Shown: positions 3,657 to 16,339 of the stretch, piece by piece
Layout: each line of letters begins with the position of its first letter
Numbering within the stretch: position 1 is the first letter of the stretch
Virus record (IMG/VR): IMGVR_UViG_3300033143_002372
Coordinates: 1 to 43,435 of that record
Direction: 5' to 3' (one strand)
DNA: 43,435 bases
Source: a virus
Translations under genes and position numbers: made by a program
Notes under the pieces: model-generated
Database searches by the model: none
What the model saw: the letters and a program-made list of their open reading frames with translations, nothing else
What the model was told of the DNA's origin: nothing

Positions 3657-4105
3657 GGAGTTTCCTTGACTATTATTTTTTTAATTACATATTTCTCTAC
3701 TTCATTATTTATTAACAAATACCCTTTAGAAGTACCTCCTTTAATTTCAAATATCTTTTTAGTATTACCTATAAGGCATAATTGCTTTTTAGAAAATACA
3801 TATATAGTGCTATAATCTCCTATCAGATATAACCATGTATTATCTGATCTCATAATACCACTATCTACATAATTAGGATTATTTTTATTTGTTTTTTCTG
3901 CTACCTCTATGTATATATTACCTGTTTCCTTGTGCTTATCATCATACTTTATTTCAATACCCTGTTTGTTTTCACCTACATTATATTGATATTTTTTACT
4001 TGAATAATTACTTAGAGAGATTCCTATTTCTTTAATTAAAACGTCCATGACAAAATCTTGATACTGCAATCCTTTTTCATTGCAATGTTCGTAATATGGT
4101 GTCAT
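3653..4105 (-). CDS. Putative restriction-endonuclease-like protein (150 aa)
   Basis: Resembles small phage nuclease-fold proteins: YQDFVMDVL near the start, then GIEIKYDD and, across a turn, NIYIEVAEK, which together could form the acidic/Lys core of a PD-(D/E)XK fold (Glu51, Asp55/56, Glu67, Lys71). Later WLYLIGDYSTIYVFSK is strand-rich. It is coupled (ATGA) to the MT-A70 methyltransferase just upstream, an arrangement that suggests a restriction-modification pair or a methyl-sensitive nuclease (inference). Confidence 0.5.
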   Translation of the reverse strand: MTPYYEHCNEKGLQYQDFVMDVLIKEIGISLSNYSSKKYQYNVGENKQGIEIKYDDKHKETGNIYIEVAEKTNKNNPNYVDSGIMRSDNTWLYLIGDYSTIYVFSKKQLCLIGNTKKIFEIKGGTSKGYLLINNEVEKYVIKKIIVKETP

Positions 4106-5064
4106 ACTTCATTACCCCATATTGTCCATTTATCATCATGGAAATCTTTTTTATCTCTGCAAAACATTTCAACTTTCTTTGATGATGGATATAAAGTATT
4201 TATTATATTTCCAAACTCTGGTGGCTTTTCACTATGTTTTTTGGTTTTTTCTATGGTCTGCACACTATCAAATAATTTAATATTTTCTGGTGTCTTACTA
4301 CCTTTAGTACATATTAATAACAATTCATGCCTTACGGAATTATAATGCCCCATGTTGTGTTTTACTTTATCCCATATAAAGGATGTTTTATATTTAAATC
4401 CCCACCCGTTTATTAATTCAAACCCTTCTTCTAGTAATGGTGAAGTTACCCACATAAATAATACAGCATTATCATCTATTTTTGGTTTATCCATGTATAT
4501 CATTTCTTGTATTGACATTGTAGGGTAATGTTTATCTGCTCCACCTGACTGTATAGCACCACTTTCACATTTGTCATTATACGACCATGGAGGATCTACA
4601 TACAAAACAGAAAATATATCATTCGGTATTTCTACTTCTTTGGAAAACTGCTCTTTTCGTTTTTCTTCTTTTATTTCATTTGCTAATTCTCTTACTGTAA
4701 GTTTATCCTCTACTGCTTTTTCAAGAAACTCTTTTTGTTTTTCAGGTTCTAAAGATGCAGCTTTTTGATGATGCGACCATGATAAATTGTCCGTACGTTC
4801 GGACTCTTTTACACTATCAGCAACATACTTATAATCTTTTAATGTTTTTAATGGTATTCCTGTTTCCTCTGCTACATCCTCATACATGCCCCACTTCTGA
4901 TCTCTATATTTTAATAAGTCACCTATCCAAAACTGTATACATCCCTCTATATGGTTACAGGCATTAAACACCTGTTGCCATTCTTTTTTTGTAACATCTC
5001 TTTTAAATGTTAGGCTTGTTTGTGATACTTTGCAATATCCGTCTATAGTTGTAAGTTCATTCAT
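4102..5064 (-). CDS. MT-A70 family N6-adenine DNA methyltransferase (320 aa)
   Basis: C-terminal half is an MT-A70 methyltransferase with the DPPW catalytic motif (LYVDPPWSY, residues 157-160) and downstream WVTSPLLEEGF, WGFKYKTSFIW and HELLLICTKG. The N-terminal about 140 residues are helical (YEDVAEETGIPLKTLKDY suggests a helix-turn-helix) and probably bind DNA. It would methylate adenine in phage DNA, shielding it from host restriction or marking it for regulation. It has its own promoter and a structured leader that can hide its SD (GAGG, 8 nt from ATG). Coupled to a nuclease-like gene downstream. Confidence 0.85.
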   Translation of the reverse strand: MNELTTIDGYCKVSQTSLTFKRDVTKKEWQQVFNACNHIEGCIQFWIGDLLKYRDQKWGMYEDVAEETGIPLKTLKDYKYVADSVKESERTDNLSWSHHQKAASLEPEKQKEFLEKAVEDKLTVRELANEIKEEKRKEQFSKEVEIPNDIFSVLYVDPPWSYNDKCESGAIQSGGADKHYPTMSIQEMIYMDKPKIDDNAVLFMWVTSPLLEEGFELINGWGFKYKTSFIWDKVKHNMGHYNSVRHELLLICTKGSKTPENIKLFDSVQTIEKTKKHSEKPPEFGNIINTLYPSSKKVEMFCRDKKDFHDDKWTIWGNEV

Positions 5065-5135
5065 TATGTTATCCTCAATATATTTATTTACTCAACTAAT
5101 GGGGGGAGTGTTGCGCTCCCCCTATATATATTGAG
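5065..5135 (-). promoter_or_regulatory. Structured 5' leader C (SD-occluding switch candidate)
   Basis: Leader of the MT-A70 gene. The 5' arm CTCAATATAT (5135-5126) can pair over 10 bp with ATATATTGAG (5083-5074), which contains most of the SD. Inside is a GC-rich hairpin GGGGGAG/CTCCCCC with a 7-nt loop (5122-5102). The same 5' arm can instead pair with TTGAGT (5095-5090), which would leave the SD free, so two exclusive folds exist on paper. The predicted +1 is 5135, the first base of the 5' arm. Confidence 0.6.
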
Positions 5136-5141
5136 TTACTT

Positions 5142-5170
5142 ATTATACTATGTTTCAATGCTTATGTATA
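5142..5170 (-). promoter_or_regulatory. Promoter of leader C / MT-A70 gene
   Basis: Minus strand TATACA (5170-5165), 17-base spacer, TATAAT (5147-5142). The predicted start (5135) coincides with the 5' end of the outer stem. The -35 lies inside the end of the 97-aa gene upstream. Confidence 0.6.
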
Positions 5171-9120: not shown

Positions 9121-9236
9121 TAAAATCCTCCGTTTTGGTATTCTTCTTTTGATATGGTTTCTATCTTATCTTGGAAGCCTTGTTTGCTGTCTGTTATAAT
9201 TTCACTTTCCCAAGTTCTTTTATTTAAAAATGTACA
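9120..9236 (-). pseudogene. Orphaned C-terminal tail of the replication protein
   Basis: In the +1 frame relative to the replication gene, 38 codons run from about 9236 to TAA 9120-9122 and read CTFLNKRTWESEI and onward. This is the usual last block of phage replication proteins (xTFLNxRxWE). It ends in a TAATG overlap with the helicase-loader start, as a real operon gene would. A frameshift or small deletion near 9225-9240 has cut it off from the main frame. The roughly 30-40 residues normally found between the WxKLxxxERKE segment and this block are also missing. Confidence 0.65.
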
Positions 9237-10054
9237 CGGCATTCTTCTTTACGTTCTTTATCATTTAACTTTTCCCACTTGACGAATGCTCCTTTTTTAT
9301 CGTCTTTTCTAGGATATAATTTCCAGAATATTTCAAAGGTTTCTTTATCTTTATCCTTAACCTTAACCTTATCTTTTTCTTTATCCTTATCTTTATCTTT
9401 AACCCCTACTGTAGGGGCTATATAAGCACCTTGAATATTTAATCTTTTAATAATTGACTCTTTATTTAGATCATACTTTTTAATAAAATCATCTAATAAT
9501 AAGTCAGATTTTTGTTGATTACACGTTGAACATGATACTGCATAGTTGTCATCCCTATTTTTACCACCTTTATTTCTTGGAAGTACATGGTCAATTTGAA
9601 GAAAATGAGGCTCACATTCTCTACCACAATACGTGCATGTAAAGTTAGTTGCTACTAAAAGCCTTTGTTTCGTCTTTGATTTTACACCGTTATTTACAGT
9701 TGCATTTACTTTTATTGTGTGATCTTCTAACTTATGTTTTTTAATTAGATTGATTACTGATAAATGTGCCTTATTATTATCTCTTAACTCGCCATATTGG
9801 AACTCGATAAACTTAGGGATAAACCATTTGTTTCCATCATCGAATACAACTATTTTTTCCCCTAATATATTTAAGCATTCTGTTTCATCTAATTCTACTT
9901 TAAATAAAAAATTAAATAAATCGAAGTCTACCTCCCATATGCCTGCATGATTACATGAATCTAATAGGTATATCCAAAATATTTTATGTTTTAATGACAG
10001 TTTTCTTAACCATCTTTTAGACCATTTGTCTGTGTCTGTGAATCTTTTTGCCAT
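9224..10054 (-). CDS. Phage replication protein with embedded HNH domain, C-terminally truncated (276 aa)
   Basis: Residues 1-110 match the N-terminal domain of phage replisome organisers (AKRFTDTDKW, FWIYLLDSCNHAGIW, KWFIPKFIEFQYGEL). Residues about 130-190 are an HNH module (CTYCGREC at 140, IDHVLPRNKGG at 154, CSTCNQQKSD at 175). A Lys-Asp repeat linker (220-238) follows, then the start of the conserved C-terminal block (FEIFWKLYPRKDDKKGAFVK). The frame then stops early while the expected tail continues in the +1 frame. It should recruit the DnaC-like loader to the origin. It has its own promoter and structured leader A; SD GGAG is 8 nt from the ATG. Confidence 0.75.
   Translation of the reverse strand: MAKRFTDTDKWSKRWLRKLSLKHKIFWIYLLDSCNHAGIWEVDFDLFNFLFKVELDETECLNILGEKIVVFDDGNKWFIPKFIEFQYGELRDNNKAHLSVINLIKKHKLEDHTIKVNATVNNGVKSKTKQRLLVATNFTCTYCGRECEPHFLQIDHVLPRNKGGKNRDDNYAVSCSTCNQQKSDLLLDDFIKKYDLNKESIIKRLNIQGAYIAPTVGVKDKDKDKEKDKVKVKDKDKETFEIFWKLYPRKDDKKGAFVKWEKLNDKERKEECRVHF
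9341..9402 (-). repeat. Lys-Asp hexamer repeat in the replication gene
   Basis: Degenerate AARGAT/AARGTT hexamers encode the charged linker between the HNH module and the C-terminal block of the replication protein. It is the second six-base coding repeat of this genome. Confidence 0.7.
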
Positions 10055-10132
10055 TGATTTTTCTCCAGTAATTTTAGTTATCCAATAATATGTGAACGGC
10101 TAGGAGCGATCAACCCCTAGCCAATTACTGGA
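10055..10132 (-). promoter_or_regulatory. Structured 5' leader A (SD-occluding)
   Basis: Leader of the replication/HNH gene. Outer stem TCCAGTAATT (10132-10123) with AATTACTGGA (10073-10064), 10 perfect pairs whose 3' strand contains most of the SD GGAG (10066-10063). Inner hairpin GGCTAGGGG/CTCCTAGCC, 9 pairs including one G-U, loop of 7 (10122-10098). Then GTTCA and an AU-rich linker of 24 nt in total. Leader B has the same layout, the same 25-nt hairpin length, the same GTTCA and a similar tail before the start codon. Confidence 0.75.
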
Positions 10133-10137
10133 ATATA

Positions 10138-10166
10138 AGTATAGCATCTATCCTGTAATATTACAA
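10138..10166 (-). promoter_or_regulatory. Promoter of leader A / replication gene
   Basis: Minus strand TTGTAA (10166-10161), 17-base spacer ending TGC (extended -10), TATACT (10143-10138). The predicted +1 is 10131, within one base of the 5' end of the outer stem. Confidence 0.65.
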
Positions 10167-15534: not shown

Positions 15535-16002
15535 TTACACCTCGTTTAAATATGCGTATTCGCCATGCAATATCCTTGCACAGCAATTATACGATTTTAC
15601 TGCATCTTTAATATTTTTATATCTCTTATATACTATACGTTTTCCTTTATAGCTTATTTGCATTTCATATTTTCCATCCTTACCTATACTAATTCCTCGG
15701 TATCCTGTCGTATTGCCTTTTCTTAACTTTGAATTACAATTGTTTTCACTTCTTGTGCATATTCTTAAATTAGATTTTCTATTATCTAGTTTATTTTGGT
15801 TTATGTGGTCTGTATCATATCCTTTTGGAGTATCTGTAATATACCTATGCATTAATATTGTTTTGTAGTTTCCTTTGTTAGCCAATCCCCTGACGGCATA
15901 ACCATTCTTGGTCATTCTCCATTTATAAATATTTATAGAATCGTAAATACTATCATCCACTATGGCTTTCTTTTTTGTATTTGTTAAATTAATTGCCTTC
16001 AT
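15535..16002 (-). CDS. HNH-AP2 homing-type endonuclease (155 aa)
   Basis: I start it at ATG 16000-16002 (AAGG 8 nt upstream); the longer frame to 16164 merely translates its leader. HNH core: MHRYI (His52), YDTDHINQNKLDNRKSNLR (His66, Asn70/74). The C-terminal AP2-like DNA-binding domain (about 100-150) reads TTGYRGISIGKDGKYEMQI then YKNIKDAVKSYN. This is the architecture of mobile phage HNH-AP2 endonucleases. It sits as a late insertion between the holin-like and PGDYG genes, with its own promoter and leader B. Confidence 0.85.
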   Translation of the reverse strand: MKAINLTNTKKKAIVDDSIYDSINIYKWRMTKNGYAVRGLANKGNYKTILMHRYITDTPKGYDTDHINQNKLDNRKSNLRICTRSENNCNSKLRKGNTTGYRGISIGKDGKYEMQISYKGKRIVYKRYKNIKDAVKSYNCCARILHGEYAYLNEV

Positions 16003-16081
16003 TTGATTTTCCTTAGTAATAATTTGCCCTGTAATAATTGAACGATGGGGGGTAATTAATCCCCCACCAATTACTAAGGCT
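16003..16081 (-). promoter_or_regulatory. Structured 5' leader B (SD-occluding)
   Basis: Outer stem CCTTAGTAAT (16079-16070) with ATTACTAAGG (16020-16011), 10 perfect pairs; the 3' strand is the SD (AAGG, 8 nt before ATG). Inner 25-nt hairpin (16068-16044) pairs GGTGGGGG with CCCCCATC, again with 8-9 pairs and a 7-9 nt loop. Then GTTCA and an AU-rich 23-nt linker. Compared with leader A the hairpin pairs differ but stay paired, so structure rather than sequence is kept. Confidence 0.75.
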
Positions 16082-16087
16082 AATGTA

Positions 16088-16096
16088 ATTATAACA
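16088..16096 (-). promoter_or_regulatory. Extended -10 promoter of leader B
   Basis: Minus strand TGTTATAAT: TATAAT (16093-16088) preceded by the TGn extension. The -35 is weak (TGATTA-like). Predicted +1 at 16081, two bases before the outer stem. Confidence 0.55.
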
Positions 16097-16108
16097 TTAA
16101 ATTGTAAT

Positions 16109-16339
16109 TTAATCACTTTTTTTCTTACTAAAGAATTCAAAAACACCGATACCAAGTAAACCACTACCCGCTATTAATATCATTTGAACTACCTTTATTG
16201 CTGTTTCACTATCGCCAACCTTCTTAAATAATGAAAAGATAAATAGTGTTAAGGCCATGCAACCACCACCGCTTAAAAGACTAATTCCGGTTATACGCTT
16301 GCTTGATTTATTCCCGTTTTGATCTGTTGTTATACTCAT
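16109..16339 (-). CDS. Putative holin, two membrane helices (76 aa)
   Basis: Two hydrophobic segments, about 18-39 (GISLLSGGGCMALTLFIFSL) and 48-70 (VVQMILIAGSGLLGIGVFEF), then a basic/acidic tail. Size, helices and position after the M15 peptidase fit a holin. Strong SD (AGGAGATAATT). Confidence 0.65.
   Translation of the reverse strand: MSITTDQNGNKSSKRITGISLLSGGGCMALTLFIFSLFKKVGDSETAIKVVQMILIAGSGLLGIGVFEFFSKKKSD

Follow-up and report, generated by a model that had tools for sequence, protein, structure and literature searches.

The window analyzed here is the whole 43,435-nucleotide stretch of the IMG/VR virus record IMGVR_UViG_3300033143_002372. Three minus-strand genes in this window lie downstream of structured leaders: an HNH endonuclease gene of 155 amino acids (HNH_3, PHROG 99; 15535..16002) behind leader B, a replication protein gene of 276 amino acids with an HNH between its N-terminal and C-terminal parts (9224..10054) behind leader A, and an MT-A70 DNA adenine methyltransferase gene of 320 amino acids (4102..5064) behind leader C. 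An initial sequence-only reading had described the first of these as an HNH-AP2 endonuclease; Pfam identified the HNH_3 domain but not AP2, which rests on the annotation of relatives. The replication protein belongs to the MAKRFTDTDKW family, with the HNH inserted ahead of the C-terminal part.

Leader B (16079-16011, minus strand) precedes the HNH endonuclease gene, which starts at the ATG at 16002. Its elements can be read directly in the sequence. The 5' arm of the outer stem P1, CCTTAGTAAT (16070..16079), and the 3' arm, ATTACTAAGG (16011..16020), which includes the SD AAGG, were located from the sequence, from the predicted fold, and from a scan of SD-bearing starts. In the predicted fold, P1 comprises 10 bp and encloses P2, a 25-nt hairpin (GGTGGGGG..CCCCCATC; 16044..16068) with a G-rich 5' side and a C-rich 3' side, followed by GTTCA and a 23-nt linker. 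This layout, including the sequestration of the SD within the P1 3' arm, recovers what had been proposed from the sequence alone. The predicted MFE is -25.7 kcal/mol (z of -2.9 against shuffles). The gene upstream of leader B stops only a few tens of bases ahead of the leader, so RNA reading through from that gene may fold differently. An open stretch in frame with the HNH gene also spans leader B (16003-16116), with a GTG at 16116 that overlaps the stop codon of the upstream gene, and the encoded segment would be hydrophobic. We rejected leader B as coding sequence since relatives of the HNH protein begin at an MK motif matching 16002, leader A contains an in-frame stop, and the segment has no family match; the opening is probably due to chance.

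Leader A (10063..10131, minus strand) has P1 at 10131-10123/10073-10065, P2 at 10122-10098, and the SD GGAG at 10066-10063, and its fold has a z of -3.9 against shuffles. The two leaders had been suggested to be homologous, and a local alignment of A and B bears this out, with a score of 49, compared to 18.8 on average for shuffles, and none of 2,000 shuffles scoring as high. When the whole genome was compared, A and B were reciprocal best non-self matches. The compensatory changes reported earlier are also present, as three P2 base pairs differ on both sides between A and B and still pair, two more differ on one side, and P1 of leader B has two additional pairs. This covariation is modest, being equaled by 59 of 500 shuffles in a comparison of only two sequences.

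A covariance model built from the alignment of A and B, the check that the sequence-only reading had proposed, was run across the window with filters off. The top match after A and B themselves (20.7 bits, E value of 0.068; match at 5136-5065) was a third copy, leader C (5072..5135, minus strand), directly preceding the methyltransferase gene at 4102-5064. Leader C has P1 at 5135-5126/5083-5074, P2 at 5122-5102, and the SD GAGGA at 5076-5072, and its fold has a z of -3.7, with none of 200 shuffles equally stable. A model-free scan for SD-bearing starts with a long-range stem holding the SD in its 3' arm also ranked A, B, and C as its top three; weaker candidates depend on several G-U pairs or have weak interiors. 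Under a strict threshold of at least 10 pairs with at most one G-U pair, 3 of 249 SD-bearing starts passed, again A, B, and C, compared to a mean of 0.33 and a maximum of 2 in 60 runs on shuffled upstream regions. In all three leaders, the SD lies within the P1 3' arm, and at the predicted equilibrium the SD bases inside P1 are paired with a probability near 1. The arms of C are unrelated to those of A and B, and we used a model-guided alignment of the three sequences because MAFFT misplaced the arms. All three have a G-rich P2 with loops and junctions that are not conserved, and the GUUCA common to A and B is absent from C. We infer that A, B, and C are predicted copies of a single type of cis-acting RNA with which three phage mRNAs begin; what is said of the leaders is prediction throughout, drawn from three sequences of one phage species.

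Each leader also has a candidate promoter on the minus strand. For leader A, the sequence and a promoter scan gave an extended -10 box, TGCTATACT (10138..10146; TTGTAA-17-TATACT), with a predicted +1 at about 10131. For leader C, the scan gave a -10 box TATAAT (5142..5147; TATACA-17-TATAAT) with a predicted +1 at about 5135. The extended -10 box of leader B, TGTTATAAT (16088..16096), was read from the sequence and supports the earlier prediction of a start near 16081; the strict promoter scan lists A and C but not B, which has a weak -35 region. Because the scan overall yields no more sites than shuffled sequence does, support for the promoters comes instead from a repeated spacing: P1 starts 7 (A), 9 (B), and 7 (C) nt past the -10 box, placing the predicted +1 at the start of P1 or 2 nt ahead of it in all three leaders. 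The predicted RNA therefore starts with the 5' arm.

The earlier account captured the layout of the leaders and the sequestration of the SD but missed a further element. In each leader, the stretch from P2 to the SD arm contains another complement of that leader's 5' arm, here called the decoy: ATTATTGG in A (10089-10082), CAATTATTACAGG in B (16028..16040, overlapping the GUUCA), and GTTGAG in C (5096-5091), all on the minus strand. Compared to shuffled linkers, the energies of the arm-decoy duplexes gave P values of 0.0032 (A), 0.018 (B), and 0.032 (C), which are not three fully independent tests because A and B are homologous. A full-energy version of the linker-shuffle test was weaker, at about 0.04 to 0.11 for each leader (152 of 2,000 shuffles for C). 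In a matrix of all arm pairings, the own decoy and own SD arm were the strongest partners in every row and column. We consider the presence of the decoy well supported, although not proven.

The decoy provides an alternative fold in which the SD is free. The best SD-open folds are predicted to lie above the SD-closed folds by 4.2 (A), 4.4 (B), and 3.3 (C) kcal/mol. When growing 5' prefixes of each leader were folded in silico, the decoy-paired, SD-free form appeared first in all three, and the SD-closed form appeared only once the SD arm was complete. Path searches gave barriers of 9 to 11 kcal/mol for closing and 12 to 15 kcal/mol for opening, all rough estimates. The reading that we find best, held with about even confidence, is that A, B, and C are cis-acting translational repressor leaders with an intrinsic delay in folding. 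Once a leader is complete, its SD-bearing 3' arm would be paired with the 5' arm and translation would be off. During transcription, the P2 hairpin would form first, and the 5' arm would then zip onto the internal decoy, which is made ahead of the SD arm. The SD would thus be unpaired when it emerges, and ribosomes could load until the SD arm displaced the decoy. The outcome would be a brief burst of translation from each new transcript, with old transcripts remaining silent; the closed form would be the resting state, and the decoy would slow closing. It is the kinetics, the regulation, and any benefit to the phage that we infer in this scheme. Such a timer would need no ligand or protein partner, although one that stabilizes either state may exist.

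The main competitor to a leader with a folding delay, appreciably less probable in our view, is static repression, in which P1 simply hides the SD, the decoy is incidental, and an outside opener is needed, such as a phage or host protein, a helicase, a small RNA, or initiation of transcripts at another site. The near-complete equilibrium pairing of the SD within P1 fits this explanation, as does precedent among T4-type homing endonucleases, several of which (I-TevI, I-TevII, I-TevIII, segB, and the HNH gene mobE) are controlled by leader hairpins that sequester the ribosome-binding site (PMC2988022). The likeness extends to a phage nuclease gene, an SD hidden in a leader stem, and a nearby promoter. 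However, the late promoter of I-TevI yields a transcript without the length needed for the hairpin, and this late RNA is therefore translated (PMC2988022), whereas the RNA predicted from the promoters of A, B, and C includes the whole stem, with no transcript class predicted to escape it. Static repression would also leave as coincidence that the decoy fits its own arm in three of three leaders, even in C with its unrelated arms. Unlike the T4-type hairpins, moreover, A, B, and C are branched, contain a decoy, and include one copy before a methyltransferase gene. The element is best placed among the SD-sequestering phage leaders, as a variant with a plausible, predicted kinetic switch.

An improbable alternative is that P2 and the junction form a recognition site, bound either by a ligand, as in a riboswitch, or by a protein, as in an operator. 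The G-rich P2 of every copy, the GUUCA of A and B, and a pair of folds that exclude each other would suit such a function, but a recognition site is hard to reconcile with the loss of GUUCA from C, with P2 loops and junctions that are not conserved, and with the lack of an Rfam match. The Rfam search of the window and the leader returned nothing at the gathering score, with the best weak matches near B far below threshold, in agreement with the earlier statement that no described RNA matches. The HEARO/omega RNAs of IscB are similar in being RNAs beside an HNH gene; A, B, and C differ from them in having no Rfam match and in neighboring an HNH_3 nuclease, an HNH-bearing replication protein, and a methyltransferase rather than IscB.

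The sequence-only reading had suggested an RNA linked to HNH genes and perhaps traveling with them, which we now regard as very unlikely. Two of the three copies do precede genes with an HNH domain, but leader C, before the MT-A70 gene, breaks the link to HNH genes. The searches described next found nothing related outside the same phage species and hence no sign of movement together with HNH genes. The model of A and B found no credible new copy at 170 loci, including about 80 HNH_3-family genes and 80 replication-protein homologues. Across 50 whole contigs, the model of A, B, and C gave a strong match only in the same species and none in 49 unrelated contigs; its weak matches were not leader-like. 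An exact A/B pattern in IMG/VR recovered only the phage's own species, in a contig with 99.8% identity, and the remaining matches fold differently. A looser pattern gave 21 other matches in IMG/VR, most belonging to one lake-phage structural-gene family and the rest due to chance, and a stricter pattern gave a single chance match in genome contigs. The lake-phage loci (L301, L305, L318, and related loci) carry a hairpin that fits the core A/B pattern, TAATTGG..CGTTCA, before a MANPGPA structural gene; we rejected them as copies because the hairpin is similar but the closing stem over the SD is absent. Fast divergence of a short element may explain the absence of copies elsewhere. An RNA thermometer is the least credible explanation, since the SD does lie in an A+U-rich stem but its predicted pairing stays nearly flat from 20 to 55°C.

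The folding delay proposed for A, B, and C resembles known RNAs in which timing is set by transient structure. In the leader of the MS2 maturation gene, a transient structure permits translation until a stable fold closes (PMC6733600), and the predicted order of open and closed states is the same here. Unlike the MS2 leader, an unrelated cloverleaf of an RNA phage, A, B, and C are compact 70-nt leaders present in three copies in a DNA phage. The type I toxin mRNAs hok and aapA3 also time translation through metastable cotranscriptional folds (PMC6733600), as predicted for A, B, and C. However, their transient structures block early translation or guide the RNA to an inert fold, whereas the transient state of A, B, and C would allow translation, and hok and aapA3 additionally involve antisense RNAs and 3' processing. 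If the proposal is correct, the MS2 principle that only new RNA is translated would extend to DNA phages, and a phage could limit, with no regulatory protein, how much of its DNA-damaging or DNA-marking enzymes is made. The leaders would also provide a test set of three, with concerted changes in arm, decoy, and SD arm. More tentatively, the three genes may constitute a phage regulon timed by a shared, self-contained 70-nt bistable RNA with a decoy of the SD arm, used repeatedly, ahead of the nuclease, replication protein, and methyltransferase genes, so that each is translated only just after transcription. Such a timer may be one form of a broader tendency of phage DNA-metabolism genes to begin their mRNAs with long-stem structures.

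A wider survey bears on this tendency. It took genes with 60 nt or more of free sequence upstream and looked for long-range stems (at least 8 net pairs and a loop of 28 to 75 nt). Such stems preceded 8 of the 23 replication genes, 4 of the 23 HNH genes, and 9 of the 33 MT-A70 genes, compared to 26 of 528 other genes on the same contigs. Pooled, the focal genes come to 21 of 79 (P = 1.7e-8 compared to these controls), an approximately 5-fold enrichment that we treat only as a lead because gene calling was simple and some of the loci are related to one another. The surveyed structures are unlike A, B, and C. Several of them have a T-tract at the end, and an Rfam search of 20 of the loci matched only a tRNA.

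Unrelated long stems, often branched, immediately precede a replication, HNH, or MT-A70 gene in other phages, namely, in L043 (2920-2991), L098 (2868-2935), L105 (2909-2979), and L069 (2921-2986) and, just ahead of a gene start near 1501, in L138, L140, and L210. Structured leaders are also present in front of two relatives of the replication protein behind leader A, in L043 and L072, both of which carry an HNH insertion. A second unrelated element is common to two phage contigs, upstream of the ATG at 2998 in L072 (and L073) and upstream of the ATG at 278 in L137. Its stem changes in a compensatory manner (CCTGCCCAC/GTGGGCAGG versus CCTCCCCAC/GTGGGGAGG), and in one case it precedes an HNH-bearing replication protein. 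By eye, a terminator-like hairpin is also visible just upstream of the gene in L149, L169, and L194 (HNH start near 1501) and in L234 (MT-A70, ATG at 2968), and in all four its loop appears to pair with an upstream stretch as a pseudoknot or kissing loop.
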